NCBI GenBank assembly: GCA_019671135.1 | Contig: JAHRHY010000002.1 | Coordinates: 1 to 64,000, forward strand | Source: Linnemannia hyalina | Lineage: Eukaryota; Mortierellomycota; Mortierellomycetes; Mortierellales; Mortierellaceae | Reading direction: 5' to 3' | Length of the DNA: 64,000 nt | Shown here: positions 21,205 to 29,719 of the stretch, in pieces | Layout of the letters: every line of letters starts with the position of its first letter | Position numbering within the stretch: position 1 is the stretch's first letter | Program-made: the position numbers and the translations under genes | Notes under the pieces: model-generated | Databases searched by the model: none | Seen by the model: only the letters and a program-made list of their open reading frames with translations | What the model was told of the DNA's origin: nothing

Positions 21205-21600
21205 ATGTACATCCAGTTGACCATCGACGTAATTACCAAGGCTCTCGAGCTGTTTTGTTCCAAGAAGAATGTAGACTTCAAGGAAAAAGATGCAAAGAAG
21301 GTTTTTAAGTCGCTTGTTGAGGATGATGAAGTGGAGATGTACTACTTTTGTGGTGCCATCTGCACCAAGTCGAAGCGCAGTTGGATGAAAGAAGTTGGTG
21401 ATGAAGGCATGCATTGTTATGTCCACGATCCTGCGCGCAAGTGTCAAGGCACAACCATTAAGGGTGCTAATTGTGGTAGTGTAGCCAAACTTGGTCAAAC
21501 ATACTGTGGACGTCATCAAGATCAAGATAGAGGTCATATAAAACGTAGTAACAACAAGGCACCTGCCAACAAGCGTACCAAGTCTTCTTGGGCATCTTGA
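21205..21600 (+). CDS. Small Cys/His-rich protein of unknown function
   Basis: 131 residues. The N-terminal third is helical and charged (ALELFCSKKNVDFKEK). From about residue 49 there are two Cys/His clusters: FCGAICTKSK followed by HCYVH, then KCQGTTIKGANC followed by YCGRH. The second cluster has the C-x-G-x-T-x-x-G-x-x-C...YC-x-x-H form seen in small zinc-binding domains of unknown role. The C-terminus is basic (NKAPANKRTK). The 3' two-thirds of the gene is duplicated head-to-head just downstream. Zinc binding is inferred; I know no function. Confidence 0.5.
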   Translation: MYIQLTIDVITKALELFCSKKNVDFKEKDAKKVFKSLVEDDEVEMYYFCGAICTKSKRSWMKEVGDEGMHCYVHDPARKCQGTTIKGANCGSVAKLGQTYCGRHQDQDRGHIKRSNNKAPANKRTKSSWAS

Positions 21601-21841
21601 AAGATTTGATACGCTTGTTGGCAGGTGCCTTGTTGTTACTACGTTTTATATGACCTCTATCTTGATCTTGATGACGTCCACAGTATGTTTGACCAAGTTT
21701 GGCTACACTACCACAATTAGCACCCTTAATGGTTGTGCCTTGACACTTGCGCGCAGGATCGTGGACATAACAATGCATGCCTTCATCACCAACTTCTTTC
21801 ATCCAACTGCGCTTCGACTTGGTGCAGATGGCGCCACAAAA
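21346..21841. repeat. Palindromic duplication of the Cys/His-rich coding segment
   Basis: The arm 21346-21586 and arm 21601-21841 (241 nt each) are reverse complements with only a few mismatches, separated by 14 nt. Transcription through both would give a long hairpin RNA. The minus-strand copy encodes the same Cys/His segment without the N-terminal part. Confidence 0.9.
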
Positions 21842-22730: not shown

Positions 22731-23043
22731 CAAGGACCAATTGAGGCATAGGGCGGCAATGTTCCCCCGGACCTCCAAGAGGGTCGACCATTCAACTTGG
22801 AGGTTCATGTGGGCCCGACCACTTTAGAACTGCCACATCTGTGGTTAACGTTCACCATCAAATAGCTCAACGCAAAAAAATAAAAAAATAAGTAGATCGA
22901 CAAAGACCAGTTGAGGCATAAGGCGGCAATGTTCCCCCGGACCTCCAGGAAGGCAGACCATTCAACCTGGAGGCTCATGTGGGCCCGACCGCTTTTAGAA
23001 CAACAGCTGCATCTGTAGCACGCGTTCACCATCAGCCAGTCCA
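22731..23043 (-). repeat. Two direct repeats with a conserved hairpin; candidate guide-RNA region
   Basis: Copies at 22731-22870 and 22901-23043 have a period of 170 bp and about 80 percent identity. Copy A has ACCTCCAAG (22771-22779) pairing with CTTGGAGGT (22796-22804). Copy B has CCTCCAGG (22942-22949) pairing with CCTGGAGG (22966-22973). The A-T pair became G-C by changes on both sides. They lie 300-600 bp past the 3' end of the minus-strand Fanzor-like ORF, where Fanzor/TnpB guide RNAs are typically encoded. The RNA role is inference. Confidence 0.5.
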
Positions 23044-23341
23044 AGGTATGAATGTAAAGGAAGAATACAAAAAGGACGCGCCAATTACAAAACCAAGCGG
23101 GCAATCGCTTACTTAAACGTGTGCGGAAGAGGAAGAGGATGGTATGACAAGTATGACTTTTGGTCTGAAAAAGGGCGCGGAAACAGGACAATGGGCGCGA
23201 GAATTACGTCATCGAAGTTAGTAATCTCGCGCCATCGCTCACGTGACCCGACACTATGGAGCATGCTGACAAGCATGCATATCAAACTATGGATGATATT
23301 GCTATGATACATCCCGTAATATGGAGAAACTCCTGCGTTCA
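23044..23341. other. 3' flank of the XPG-Fanzor gene
   Basis: No gene seen. If the downstream repeats are part of a guide RNA, this stretch would be its 5' side or the mRNA 3' UTR. Confidence 0.35.
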
Positions 23342-26300
23342 TTATTTCCTTGACTTGTTCTTGGTGTGGACGGATGGTGTATCAGCCGTGGGAACGACAT
23401 CAGTGTTGGGGTCCTCGACTGAGACGATCGAAGTGGCACGTCTCTTTCTGGTTGGGCCACTCACAGTGGTCGTCGCCGCCATCGACGGGCTGGCTGCTGC
23501 TGATCCTCCTCCAGCATTGCCGCCCACATTGACGTCCATGGCCTCAGGTGGTCCATCTGCTCCCTCTCCGCCACCACCACCACCACTGTCGCCACCAGTA
23601 GTAACATCCATCCATGGGTAAGTTCCGTCTCGACGCTGAGGTTGGAGGTAGAGCGGCCGCTGCTGGTGGATCAGATGGCCCTTGATGGCATTGTTCATGT
23701 TTTTCGATGCCATCACATCACGCTGCCAGAAGCGCTTACAGATCTTGCAAAAGAGCGTCCACCAGTCCGACGTCGCACAAACAAAGTCATGGCAGTATGG
23801 GCATCGTTTGGATGAAAAGTACTCACTGATCCCGATGACCAAATAGCCCAACGAACGAGCCTAAGTCAAGACAAAAAATAGAGGTATTAGCAAGTCGCTA
23901 TAAAGGAATGGCCCTGCTGAACAGTCGTCGCAAAGATGTGCCCTACCAGATTGATGAAAAACGCTTGAAAGGTGCCGTTGAGTCCAGGTGGGCCATGTAC
24001 ACCAGTAAACTTGGCCAGTCCAATTGCGATCACAACTCGTCGATGTGGCATCCTTGGCCGCCCAACAGATCCGCCGATCATTTTGAGCAGGCCCTCAGCA
24101 ACCTTGCAGAATTCCTCTTGCCGACACACCTCGGAGTCCCACTTGTGTTTCCAGAAGTTGGTTTGATTGTAGAAGTTGTCCAAATCTTCCTCTGATGCTC
24201 GGCGCGCGGCAACGTACTCTCGAAACGAGGCACCTTCTCTCATGAGAGGCGGCAGAGCGGTCTCAATGTCCTGAATGGCCCTTCCGGTAGATGATCCGGT
24301 GGTGAATTCCTTTCTGTCCTCGAGCCAGCCGGCAAAGCTGTCCGATGGTCGCGACACAGCCTTGCGCTTGACCACCAGATCAAAGTACCGAGTCGTCTGA
24401 GGTTCCTTCAGCTTGTGCGCCTTTTGCCTTGCCCTTTGCCGTCTTCGATAACCGGGCTTCCGCTTGCCTCGTCGTGTCTTTTCTTCTTCTTCAGCTTCTT
24501 GTCTCGTTCCTTGCCGTGGGGTTGCGCTAATGTTGCAGGGGTCTGACCGGGTGGGAGTGAGATGGTGGCGCCGATTAGGCAGGAGGTACCCAAGTCGAGC
24601 GACAGAACTCCAACTTGACTAGGGTCAGCACCCGACAGGTTCTCCACATCTGTGGCAGTAGAGAAGACATTGCGGACCTCTGTCAGATATCCGTTGGTGC
24701 CGCCGATGGTGGTGACGAGCGCGTTGGGCAACTTGTTCTCGGGAAAACGACGGTATCTGACGGACTGAATCTCTTTCAGTTTAAAGGCCAGCAGCTGCAG
24801 CAAACGGCCGTTAGTATGGATCGAGCCTTTGAGAACATAGCCCTTGCCATGCCATTCCTTGGGATCAAACTTCTCGGCCCGTAGACATCCGAGGTGCTCC
24901 CGAAGTCCTTCTTTCCCGTCCTTGCCGTCCATATCCATGATTGTTGTCGTTTTGCGGAAGCCTTTGTCGTGCTTGTTTGGCGGAAGGCCAACATCCGACA
25001 GGAAAGTAGTCACGAAGCGACCAGGGGTCGTGCTGGTCAGCCAGTTCAGAGCGTCAGCTTGCGAGGGATTGATGGTTGGATCCTGAAAGAAACGATCCTT
25101 GATTATCATACTGCGGATCTTGTCCTTGAGGACCGGCCAGGCCCAGAACAGCGGCAGCAGCTGCCGTTCAGAGAAGCCAATATAGCGAGCTGCCAATGGT
25201 GAGAGGGGCGCTATGCGTCTCAATCTACCGCTGGATTTGTTTAGACGAAGATAATTCTCGATGGCAGGCAGGTTGGAGTTGATCTTGGGGAGTGTTGTGC
25301 CAGGTTGGCATGGTGGTTGTGAGTTGATCTATTGTAAAGAGGACAAAGACATTGGGTCGGAAAAAGTTTGATTAGTGTTGATCTCCATGCATTTATTCCG
25401 TGACAAAGCTTGGGTTGACAACTTCACGTTACCTTGTTCTCAAGTGCGACCGATACATCATTTTTACAGAACGGTAGAATTGCTTGGTGGTCGATTCGAG
25501 AAGCGCGCTTGTTGAGTAAGACACCATGCGTCGAGGAGCAGGGGGCAAGGCGATGCCCAAGGAGGCGGCACGTGCAAGCAGCTGTCCGACTTGGCGCTCG
25601 ATAACCGTCTTGAACTTGGTCTTGGGAGAGCAGATATGTGCCAGCAAAATCTGGTAGAAAGCAATAAACGGCTTGTCCATTGCCGACGGCTCAGCATCTT
25701 CGTCGACATCATCCTCTAGGTCCTCCTCACCTGCATCCTCGGCGGTTGTGCCAGCGGAACTGCTGCTGCTTTCCTGCGAATCCTGGTGGGGCTTAGGCGA
25801 TAGGCGAATTTTGGACTTGACAGTGGGACATAGCGTGTTCAGGATGGTTCGGTCCTCCTCGGTCTGACCACGCTCAAAGATGGTCTCGATGAACGAGCCA
25901 AAAAAAACTCCTGTGCGCGTCTCATCGTCACGCGAGCTTGCTCGACAATGTCCAGTATGCAGGCGGAGACATCGGATTGTTGCTGTTGCTGTTGCTGCTT
26001 TGACGAGGGGAGTTGGTTGTCGTCAGTGGTGGTTCCTGCCGCTGCCCGGTTGCTGTTGGCTCTGATCGTGCCGACGGGAAGGGAGACAAGGGGATGCTCC
26101 CACACCATAGCATTGATCAGCTGCTGCTTGTCCATCTCCTCAATCTTGCGCGGTGGCTTCTTGAGTAGCTCCATTTCCTTTTTGAGTCGTCGCTCGTCAC
26201 GCTGCCGCATCTTCTCGGCCTGCTTCTTCTCGTTTTCGGCTATCGACTGCTGGTAACGCGCTTCTTGTTTCGCCGTGTACGGCTTCAACTGGTACTGCCT

Positions 26301-27747
26301 GCATATATATGGCGGCTCATGCTGCTGCGGTTTTGACCGTGCCTTGGGCGAGTATCGTGGCCGATGCACCTGTCGCGAGAATCCAGGCTGGTGAGCTGGC
26401 CGGTCGATCACATGGTGTCGTCGAAACTCTTTGTGCTTGCCCTCCCGTTCGGGTTTGGTGTCACTGAAGAATGTACCAGAATGCATGAGGAGCAAAACAA
26501 TGTGTTAGAGTATTTGCAAATAATGACGAAACTGATATCAGCAAGTCATATGGGAGAAGAGCACAATGGGTTACCTCTTGCTGCTCGTGATCATGCGCTT
26601 CTGTGCCTTGGCCAATTCATGCTGCTCTTTGATTGAATGGTATTGCTGAAGGAGGACATTGTACGACATGGAGGGCGCAGAGGAGGTCGTGAGCGGTGTT
26701 ACTGACTGTGCAGTCGACGATGGATCAGAGATTACGCCTGCTGGAACAGCAATCTCCTGAGTCATCGTGGTAAACACGAGAATAGAAGCTGTAAAATCGA
26801 TCTCGTCTTGGTTGCGGCCGACCACATGTGGACTTCTGAGGTATTCTTGCACCAGTGATGGCACGTCTAATATAGAAAGGTATCAAAAGAAGTTATGGTG
26901 AGTCTGGTCATGTCCACAATGAAGAGAGACCTCCAGATATACTAGCAAGTCCTTTGTTCTTACCTCCATCTGGTAGATCCTTGATAATCTTGTAGTTAGT
27001 GGCGATACCCAGGGATGGAATGTTCTTGTTATAGTCATTGGAGGAGACGCTTGCCAGAGCAGTGAATTTGGTGGTCGACAGACCTATCTGGGCCAACACC
27101 GACACCTTGTTGTACTCGAGGACCTTGAACTCATCTCGCTTGCCCACAGAACACCACATGAACTTAACCGGATCGTACGCGAAAAAATATGAGTCTTGGG
27201 ACAGCACGATGTCCGTGGGTTGACAGTCAGCAGCGATCGCGTTATCCGCCTCCGTCCGGCAGAGACGCGCGTCCTGTTGTTGACCAAGTAAGAAATCAAC
27301 AAAGTCCTCGCGATCCTGAAGGGACCATGTGAATCCTCCTCGCAGATTCTTGTCGACGTTCTTAAACATGGCCTTGGTGGGTGGTTAGCCTCCGCCGATA
27401 CGTTCGCTAAGTGTGTTGGTGGCGACCTCGGCGGCCATGAGAGCCTTGACACGTTTCGCGTTCCGCTCATGGTGAGCTTCTTTCTTCTCGAGAGCAGGGA
27501 GGCCGTCCACGTAGAACACCATGCGTAAGGGGTCGCCGTACTTCTTGATGTGTGCAAACAAAATGGCATGTGCTTTTGACTTGTCGTGTGCATATTTGAT
27601 GTACGCCCATAGAATCTTGCTGTAAAACGAGAGAACATCAACGCGCACCATGGCGTCGTCAGGCAGGGGGTAGCGCTTGGGGTGACGAAGGGTAGGATTG
27701 TATCCTTTTTTCCTTCTGAGCCACCAGTACAATCCTTTTAAGCCCAT
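23342..27747 (-). CDS. XPG/FEN1-like nuclease fused to Fanzor/TnpB-like RuvC nuclease (frame-disrupted)
   Basis: Five exons (27747-26964, 26866-26575, 26463-25433, 25328-23947, 23860-23342) encode about 1,336 residues. The N-terminus is XPG-like: MGLKGLYWW, Asp37 in VRVDVLSFY, Asp81 in YVDG, the I-region TEADNAIA (about 165-172), SQDSYF with Tyr where a second Asp is usual, and an H3TH-like SSNDYNKNIPSLGI. The middle is basic, Gln-rich and acidic. The C-terminal half is Fanzor/TnpB-like. It has RuvC-I LSLDLGTS (near 24594), a segment VVIAIGLAKFTG lacking the usual Glu, an alternative Glu in GISEYFSSK, a zinc ribbon CPYC...CKIC, and RuvC-III RFWQRDVMASKNM. An in-frame TAA (27385-27387) could lie in a 54-nt intron. 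Frame changes at homopolymers near 25900, 25461 and 24479 each need one added base. So this is either a recent pseudogene or an assembly with homopolymer errors. The predicted role is RNA-guided DNA cleavage, from family knowledge. Confidence 0.75.
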
Positions 27748-28215
27748 GAGGAGGAAGCTCGTGTGCGTGTGTGACAGTAAGAGTTCATTAAATGAGAATA
27801 TGGGAAAGGGATGGGACATTCATTTCAGCGAAAACAGAGACGAAGGGCGTGAGAAATACATCACCGATGATATTAAATCGCATTTGCTGAGAGGATTTAC
27901 AACTGCATGAGCAGAACCTGTTTCCGGGCGTCACGCAAGTACCAAGCTTCAGCCAACCCTCCAGCCAATAAGACGTATTACAAAACATCATTAACGTATT
28001 TCTTACGTCTATTACCACCTTTTCCGATTTTAAGTTGAATACGAAAAGACCATTCGAGTCCTGAATCATACTATGTGGTCTGTTTCCAACCAGCACAATT
28101 CACTGGTTTCGAGCATTGGTACAGCACCTCAGCCGCACGGCACAAAAAAAAAAGGCTTGGTCTTTCATCTTTATGACATGCATCTAACCCTTTCATCAAC
28201 ACCATTGAACACAAC
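27748..28215. other. Divergent promoter region between XPG-Fanzor and GT10 genes
   Basis: 468 bp shared by two divergent genes. No terminal inverted repeat or target duplication that would mark a transposon end was found by eye. The reading frame extends upstream to 27819 on the minus strand, but MGLKGL at 27747 matches the conserved XPG N-terminus and is preferred. Confidence 0.45.
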
Positions 28216-29719
28216 ATGAGCACCCCAGCCAAAGAATATCCGATCTTATGGTGGAAACAGGAAGGCAGAGAAGGCATTGACGGCTGGGAGGTCACTGGCT
28301 GCGACCTTCCCTACACCTGCCGGAATTCCCTGAACGAGTCGTACTGGGACCAGTCGCCGCTTGTCCTTGTCAACGTTGGCCAGGTTGAACATGGTCTGCC
28401 GCCCCAGGAGGAATTTGACGCTGGCAAGAAGGCAATGATCTTTTACGGAGGTAGGTTGTCTTTCCTGTGCGTTGTTCTCTCTCTCCGTTCACTGTCCTCT
28501 GTCGTCTCCTTTTTTTTTCTGCGATCTCTCTCTCTCTCCCCCCCCCCCCCCCCTTTCCCCCCCTTATTCACCTCGACACTCGTTCCTAACGGCCAACATA
28601 CTTGTCAACCATTGCATTGCTCGTTGTTGCATCCATTTTCTTAAAAAAAAAGCGGAGGCACCCAAGTACTTTGAACGGGATCCCAAGATCATCGGCCGGT
28701 TCACATACAGGTTCACATTCAACCCAACATCTGATTATGTCGTTCCATATTTTGACACCGACATAATCGACATGGTCCTCCAGCCACCACCAGTGTCCCT
28801 CGAGCACAAGAACACCATGAGGAAGCAAGGATTCGTCAACAGCCAGGGGAAAGGGCTCGCGCCAATTGCATGGATCGTCAGCAACTGCGACTCGTTCAGC
28901 GGCCGCCATTTCTACGTCTACCAGCTCCAAAAGTACATCGACATTGACATCTACGGCCACTGCAACCCGACACGGCCCTGGCCCACGGACATCAATGGCA
29001 GGGATCTCTCTCCCGAGCAGATTGTCCAACAGTACAAGTTTTACCTGGCAATTGAAAACAACAACTGCGACTACTATGTGACAGAGAAGCTGCAGCGGGC
29101 GTACAAGGCAGCGGCCATCCCCATTGTCGATGGCCCCAAGGATTATAGCGCCTTTGCAGCCACTCGCATCGCTCTCATCCAGACTGACGACCACACACCC
29201 AAGTCGCTCGCCCGCCTTGTTAAGGAGCTGGACAGCAACGACGACCTGTACAGGAACCGCATTGGATACAAGTATCCCAAGGACCCATCACATCGTCCCA
29301 CCACCAAGGACCTCTCGCCATACTTTGTCAGGACATGGACCAACCCCAATACCAATCCACGAAAGGAAGGAAGCTATCGTCAAGCATGGCCACCTTCGTT
29401 CGATGAGTCCATCTGCCGCGTCTGTGAACTCGCACACGACATCTCTGAAGGGCTTGTGCAGCTGGATCCAATGCAGCGGCTCCAAGCGGACACGACGTGC
29501 GTCCTCAAGAAGCACTACCATATGACATGGTTTATAGAGTACCACTGGCGCATCGCCCTTGCCATCCTCACATCCATGGCCGTCCTTGTGTACTTGCTCA
29601 CTCGACAACCAGTCAAGCAGTTGTGGATGCCCCTCGTCAAGTCGGTCCTGCCACATCGCTGGCGACGGGACAACACCTATATGGAGCTGTCCATTGTCAA
29701 AGACGACTTAATCAACTAG
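28216..29719 (+). CDS. Alpha-1,3-fucosyltransferase-like (GT10) with C-terminal membrane anchor
   Basis: Exons 28216-28450 and 28653-29719 join in frame to give 433 residues. The intron carries a C-run and an A-run before its AG. The GT10 signature is YKFYLAIENNNCDYYVTEKL, followed by AAAIPIVDGPKDYSAF; upstream, APIAWIVSNCDS and DIDIYGHC are the acceptor/donor-region motifs of the family. The enzyme should transfer fucose from GDP-fucose to a glycan. Known GT10 proteins are usually type II with an N-terminal anchor. Here the N-terminus (MSTPAKEYPILWWKQEG) goes straight into the catalytic domain, and a hydrophobic segment (IALAILTSMAVLVYLL) sits near the C-terminus. A decayed paralogue lies 320 bp downstream. 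Confidence 0.85.

Follow-up and report, generated by a model that had tools for sequence, protein, structure and literature searches.

A mobile, multicopy fusion of an XPG/EXO1-like nuclease to a Fanzor-like nuclease in Linnemannia hyalina

The genome of the fungus Linnemannia hyalina carries a multicopy gene in which an XPG-type nuclease is joined to a Fanzor-like nuclease and which travels in DNA transposons of two groups. We are nearly certain that the two halves truly form one fused gene; its N-terminal half belongs to the XPG/Rad2 nuclease superfamily and is nearest by fold to EXO1 and FEN1. The copy with which we begin lies in a stretch of 64,000 nucleotides (assembly GCA_019671135.1, contig JAHRHY010000002.1, positions 1 to 64,000; hereafter the window). 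This copy has decayed; its family has intact members as well.

The window copy occupies the minus strand from 27747 to 23342 as five exon-like pieces separated by four introns with GT..AG ends. Exon 1 opens at 27388..27747 with the motifs MGLKGL, RVDVLSFY, and YVDG of the N-terminal part of the XPG/EXO1-like half, is broken by an in-frame TAA stop (27385..27387), and continues at 26964..27384 with the XPG I-region TEADNAIA, the residues SQDSY replacing DSD, and an H3TH-type NDY. Intron 1 (26867..26963, phase 1) is followed by exon 2 (26575..26866), a linker region that is homologous in our protein alignment A1, and intron 2 (26464..26574, phase 2) by exon 3 (25433..26463), which holds linker and the start of the Fanzor-like half and changes frame near a T-run at ~25907-25900. 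Past intron 3 (25329..25432), exon 4 (23947..25328) carries the RuvC-I motif LSLDLG of the Fanzor-like half and changes frame between ~24618 and ~24408, and past intron 4 (23861..23946, phase 0), exon 5 (23342..23860) carries the alternative Glu, a C4 zinc ribbon (PF07282), the RuvC-III Asp, and the stop codon; SEYFSSKRCPYC, CKIC, and QRDVMASKNM are also read on these pieces. In a splice search of this copy, introns 1 and 2 came out with phases 1 and 2 and intron 4 with phase 0; the top-ranked solution for intron 3 was a chance one. The XPG-type and Fanzor motifs listed in an initial annotation of the window were all recovered, as were the two introns it had named (here the first and third), to which two more were added; its account of one continuous exon chain was not confirmed, given the stop codon and the two frame changes. 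That annotation had missed both the brokenness of the copy and its membership in a large mobile family.

In a Pfam scan, exon 5 of the window copy matched the TNB zinc ribbon PF07282 at 29.1 bits (cut-off 26.3), and the window pieces matched no XPG family at E up to 1; the domain pair expected from the initial annotation was thus recovered by profile for the ribbon and not for the XPG half, whose assignment in this copy comes from homologues. The intact XPG half of another copy aligned to window positions 26971-27732 at 36% identity (E 4.4e-36), crossing one stop. SQDSY stands where 13 of 13 aligned homologues keep the second Asp of DSD, and one of the seven acidic XPG active-site residues is accordingly replaced; the WED-domain motif reads TNG. 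On the same strand, the transposon right end (23179..23217) consists of a conserved motif and NNNCC, and the host flank just past it (23159..23178) would be the putative guide-coding stretch if the Fanzor rule applies. The left end of this copy was not found with the left-end patterns used, and Rfam gave no match at E up to 1 across window positions 23000-28200.

In the 51.5-Mb assembly (50 contigs), where loci were defined as merged matches of two XPG-half and two Fanzor-half queries, we located 79 XPG-half loci and 112 Fanzor-half loci. For 67 of the 79 XPG-half loci, far above chance, a same-strand Fanzor half followed downstream at a distance of 0.45-2.3 kb, and 64 of these 67 pairs were spaced 1.49-2.32 kb; opposite-strand pairs within 4 kb numbered 0, and in seven same-strand pairs the XPG half lay downstream of the Fanzor half. 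A partner was not detected for 12 of the 79 XPG-half loci and 45 of the 112 Fanzor-half loci, so Fanzor-only members are possible. Nine copies were joined from overlapping loci, and a tenth pair had no overlap. The C1 copy encodes an intact protein of 1295 aa, open from ATG to stop over five exons. The splice search gave the complete intron phases 1-2-0-0 in two copies (L038+L019 and L044+L015) and 1-2-none-0 in L028+L008; the 1-0-0-0 returned for L031+L024 came from a wrong exon-2 frame supplied to the search. By rough Nei-Gojobori estimates from pairs of L. hyalina copies sharing at least 80 codons (pS 0.005 to 0.72), diverged pairs (dS >0.5, often near saturation) had dN/dS of 0.14-0.28 in the XPG half (5 pairs) and 0.11-0.35 in the Fanzor half (17 pairs), and young pairs had 0.16-1.22 (6 pairs) and 0.41-1.03 (10 pairs), respectively. 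By these ratios, selection preserved both halves over the history of the family and was relaxed among recent copies.

Using the C1 protein as a query, 40 proteins were listed, all from Mortierellomycota by organism name (judged by eye), and motif patterns placed an XPG I-region and a zinc ribbon together in 15 of them (P0005, P0006, P0012, P0013, P0017, P0018, P0019, P0022, P0023, P0025, P0027, P0029, P0030, P0032, and P0035). These come from Entomortierella, Mortierella, Dissophora, Benniella, Linnemannia, Actinomortierella, and Podila, so that the fusion proposed in the initial annotation recurs in single gene models of at least seven Mortierellomycota genera; its predicted structure, as one chain, also matched both EXO1/FEN1 and Fanzor. 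Queried alone, the XPG half had 80 matches, the named ones among those listed being only from Mortierellomycota, and the Fanzor half had 173, with the same result for the named ones among the best 120 of the 173. In IMG/VR, 61 pattern matches were obtained and none was confirmed. Some annotations split the gene, as two neighbouring genes merged by gene-model error might lead one to expect: five pairs of models bear neighbouring locus tags and lie on contigs of identical length (EC957_007864/007865, EC957_009129/009128, BG004_006509/006508, EDD21DRAFT_79587/79589, and BGX26_003973/003974), an adjacency that fits one gene annotated as split models. We consider such a merger exceedingly improbable, given that the intron phases run across the junction in the two complete copies, that the intact copy is open through all of its exons, that the linker is conserved in the alignment, and that 15 annotated proteins are fused.

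Within the N-terminal half, homologue and predicted-structure searches matched the catalytic fold, with H3TH, of the XPG/Rad2/FEN1/EXO1 superfamily, at ~15-20% identity to EXO1, FEN1, and Rad2/XPG nucleases in the fold-search alignments. The acidic active-site residues are kept at D36 (15/15), D81 (12/12), and E166, D168, D185, D187, and D235 (13/13). At E up to 0.1, Pfam found XPG_I in 14 of 15 proteins and XPG_N in one of the 15. Five fused proteins were scanned against the Pfam cut-offs; the TNB ribbon exceeded its cut-off in all five and XPG_I in one, P0019 (26.2 bits, cut-off 24.9), which also passed for XPG_I_2 (28.2 bits, cut-off 24.2), so that profiles for both halves, as anticipated initially, were recovered in a single homologue. 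In a subfamily of nine copies, the XPG half has QSD where others read EAD.

The predicted structure of the C-terminal half matched the Fanzor1 fold in a fold search that listed Fanzor entries, whereas a PDB sequence search with profile A1 returned none; the absence of other families among the fold-search rows carries no weight. The Fanzor motif of Bao and Jurka 2013 (PMC3627910), D-X(125-275)-[TS][TS]-X-X-C4 zinc finger-X(5-50)-RD, is found in P0023 (D969, T1215-S1216, C1219/C1222/C1236/C1239, and R1245-D1246). Yoon et al. 2023 (PMC10711439) describe an alternative Glu six residues ahead of the zinc finger of Fanzors, a RuvC-I DPG that is near exclusive in Fanzors, and a TDG motif of the WED domain that marks Fanzor1. 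The alternative Glu, which the initial annotation had read as a relocated catalytic residue before the ribbon, is present as E1212 in 13 of 13 aligned proteins, and E-x6-CxxC occurs in 38 of 120 proteins, the remainder often being annotated without the ribbon part. Among these 120, which were picked by a DxG[QKE] pattern that could miss other RuvC-I forms, RuvC-I reads DLG in 74, DGG in 25, DAG in 17, and DPG in 2, and the WED motif reads TDG in 86 and TNG in 11. Because DPG occurs in only 2 of the 120, we use the term Fanzor-like and do not place the family as a strict member by the DPG definition.

In the first transposon subfamily, similarity among the near-identical copies on C1, C8, and C21 breaks off at one common point downstream of the gene; between the window copy and a 95.5% identical sibling on C14, it breaks off at window position 23179. 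The right-end motif occurs 95 times in the genome with at most 3 mismatches (control 0) and the inverted left end 13 times (control 0), and together they form inverted-repeat ends of ~25 bp that bound four elements of 4.6-4.8 kb on C4, C13, C22, and C48. Among six elements examined, exact 8-bp target duplications flank two, on C13 (ATTTGCAT) and C22 (AGGCATCC); three (C4, C48, and C6) have no target duplication, and that of C1:79135-79905, a 0.77-kb deletion derivative in which exon 5 is flanked by both ends, is only approximate. On C6, both ends enclose a fragment of a SWIM-type transposase with relatives at seven other loci. Six of these eight SWIM-type loci lie head-to-head with an XPG or Fanzor half at a distance of 1.1-2.9 kb, where regions reaching up to 3.5 kb from a Fanzor locus cover 0.93% of the genome; near the other two (C6 and C23), neither half was matched with one XPG-half query and one Fanzor-half query. 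Remnants resembling exon 3 were seen by eye on C6. Against Pfam, the transposase gene on C8 scored 22.6 bits for MULE, under the cut-off of 27.6, and 20.4 bits for SWIM, over the cut-off of 19.6. Mutator-like transposons have a MULE transposase, inverted repeats, and a target duplication of 8-11 bp.

A divergent form of the XPG-Fanzor gene is carried by a second, young vehicle, the nine-copy subfamily, whose members are ~98% identical across 4.65 kb. In the copy on C8, the gene comes after a piggyBac-type transposase frame (PF13843, DDE_Tnp_1_7, E 2.8e-44). The ends of these elements read TATCCCTTC...GAAGGGATA (left ends from 4 copies, right ends from 6 copies), with the terminal bases TATCCC..GGGATA. 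piggyBac-type transposons have a TTAA target duplication; in the four copies with both ends, there was no duplication beyond the terminal TA, and TTAA was not seen.

The right end may also be the source of a guide RNA. A candidate C(UUCG)G hairpin there has a stem that reaches 12 bp in certain copies, and across 68 sequences the mean stem was 4.8 vs 2.1 when the 5' side was shuffled. In an alignment of 65 right ends, the proportion of paired cells was 71.7% for a bulged form of the hairpin vs at most 50.6% in slid versions, and 59.1% for a straight form vs at most 45.7%. Covariation, evaluated against 500 shuffles of this alignment, was unsupported for either form: the observed values for the bulged hairpin were reached by 30 of 500 shuffles (paired percentage), 27 (covariation score), 12 (cells altered on both sides), and 328 (pairs altered on both sides); those for the straight hairpin were reached by 56, 211, 161, and 387 of 500, respectively. 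RNAalifold returned a different, weak structure for the right ends. TGACGTAA could alternatively be a protein-binding site.

EXO1 digests 5' ends and FEN1 digests 5' flaps. In the mechanism that we propose, a conserved right-end RNA would use the adjoining host sequence to guide the Fanzor-like half to element-free sites, e.g., the donor site after excision, and the EXO1/FEN1-like half would then digest 5' strands or flaps at the guided cut, with the result that repair would copy the element back by homologous recombination instead of proceeding by end joining. The fusion would thereby couple the cutting of an empty site to immediate resection, favouring recombination with the element-bearing copy, and would increase the copy number of the transposon as a built-in device for cutting and resection. 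TnpB and Fanzor proteins use an RNA that comes from the right end of the transposon and has a guide part matching the target (PMC10432273, PMC10711439); a proposal in the literature is that propagation is promoted by cutting at a sister site (PMC10432273). The whole explanation, a decayed mobile gene for a fused nuclease with a guided cut-and-resect role, seems to us somewhat more probable than its negation. The full generalisation, a natural machine in which a eukaryotic RNA-guided nuclease brings along an EXO1-like activity for resecting 5' ends, biases repair of each guided break to recombination, and so drives the copying of different transposons across the phylum, falls a little short of an even chance. 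The roles first suggested for the gene (processing of guided breaks, transposition, or homing) are likewise putative, and the transposon context is observed. Counted against the whole explanation were the unsupported covariation, the three of six elements without target duplications, QSD in the nine-copy subfamily, the Fanzor loci without an XPG half, and the 118 of 120 proteins without DPG.

The XPG-like half of the fused protein might instead serve the transposase reaction, for instance by removing flaps or unfolding structures at the ends left by excision, independently of guided cutting, as the position of the gene beside MULE/SWIM-type (6/8 loci) and piggyBac-type transposase genes would allow. 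This we judge unlikely, since the XPG half is fused to the Fanzor half and not to a transposase, the gene accompanies two unrelated transposase kinds, and the 4.6-4.8-kb elements were delimited without an internal transposase match. Less likely still is that the XPG-like half has no catalytic role and only binds or tethers DNA; the changed active-site positions of the window copy and the nine-copy subfamily point that way, but the catalytic acidic columns are invariant in 13 of 13 fused proteins, and dN/dS is low in diverged pairs. Purifying selection between diverged copies would also suit a domesticated host gene family (e.g., one for defence against mobile DNA) that has lost its transposon role. 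This is very improbable in view of the inverted-repeat ends, the 8-bp duplications, the deletion derivative on C1, the near-identical dispersed copies, and the many broken copies.

Compared with the Fanzor1 proteins SpuFz1, GtFz1, and PpFz1, the proteins described here have an added N-terminal EXO1/FEN1-type nuclease and linker, and their RuvC-I is mostly DLG, DGG, or DAG, not DPG. They differ from EXO1, FEN1, and Rad2/XPG in their low identity to these, in being joined to a Fanzor-like nuclease, and in being mobile. The published account of the MuDr-type Fanzor1 elements of Mucoromycota, ROr-4, PBl-3, and MCi-4 (PMC3627910), gives inverted-repeat ends, 9-bp duplications, and no MuDR transposase; like these, the elements described here are fungal and Fanzor1-type, with inverted-repeat ends and target duplications, whereas the duplications here are of 8 bp, a MULE/SWIM-type gene lies near several loci, and an XPG half is present. 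PpFz1 (PMC11423790) is likewise a Fanzor1 with an extra domain, FRI, which is inserted in RuvC and binds cyclophilin, where the extra domain here is a second nuclease. No description of an XPG/EXO1-type-Fanzor fusion was found in the literature searched, a mention in Jiang et al. 2023 (Sci Adv) being possible, and with DPG absent from 118 of 120 proteins we regard the lineage as Fanzor-like but divergent, its domain architecture being new. Fanzors are eukaryotic RNA-guided nucleases under development for genome editing. With both catalytic sets kept and two kinds of transposon involved, the proposal that directed repair follows a guided break is testable half by half. Guided nucleases have been fused to end-processing exonucleases by engineering, and the XPG-Fanzor lineage offers a natural counterpart with dozens of natural sequences. 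Other multicopy families are also present in the L. hyalina genome, on C6, C18, C23, C44, C49, and C50; XPG frames of 376 aa (11 matches) and of 465 or 312 aa (10 matches) in such families are likewise paired with Fanzor halves.

Further multicopy XPG-Fanzor families with near-identical copies were found in the Linnemannia hyalina genome, with examples at C6:620499-624006, C18:90568-94075, and C6:27468-31124 (contig:positions), and a divergent XPG-Fanzor gene is carried by a young family of piggyBac-type elements, comprising a copy on contig C8 at approximately 1329250-1336616 (loci L078, L093, and L094) and eight more copies. This C8 copy is flanked by two old ends of subfamily 1, the elements with inverted-repeat ends and a conserved right-end motif. 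On contig C1, two right-end motifs face outward, one on each side of a 1.47-kb stretch (C1:239129-240602; L048, L049).

Among the homologues, the Mortierella hygrophila protein EC957_007863 (P0114) combines a SWIM-type stretch and part of XPG exon 1 in one predicted protein, and its gene adjoins EC957_007864 and 007865. EC957_007863 is probably a gene-model chimera, one that reveals a transposase gene next to an XPG-Fanzor fusion. The XPG halves themselves were matched by the Pfam poxvirus G5 family (Pox_G5) in eight of the 15 sequences of the family's XPG alignment, with a best E-value of 3.6e-7.

Within the window, a 95-nt direct repeat of 89% identity (22731-22825 and 22901-22995) lies just outside the element's right end, and an inverted repeat with 241-nt arms that are 99% complementary and separated by a 14-nt spacer occurs at 21346-21586 and 21601-21841. 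The plus strand at approximately 28439-29719 holds a long open frame that, on inspection by eye, appears glycosyltransferase-like (fucosyltransferase type).
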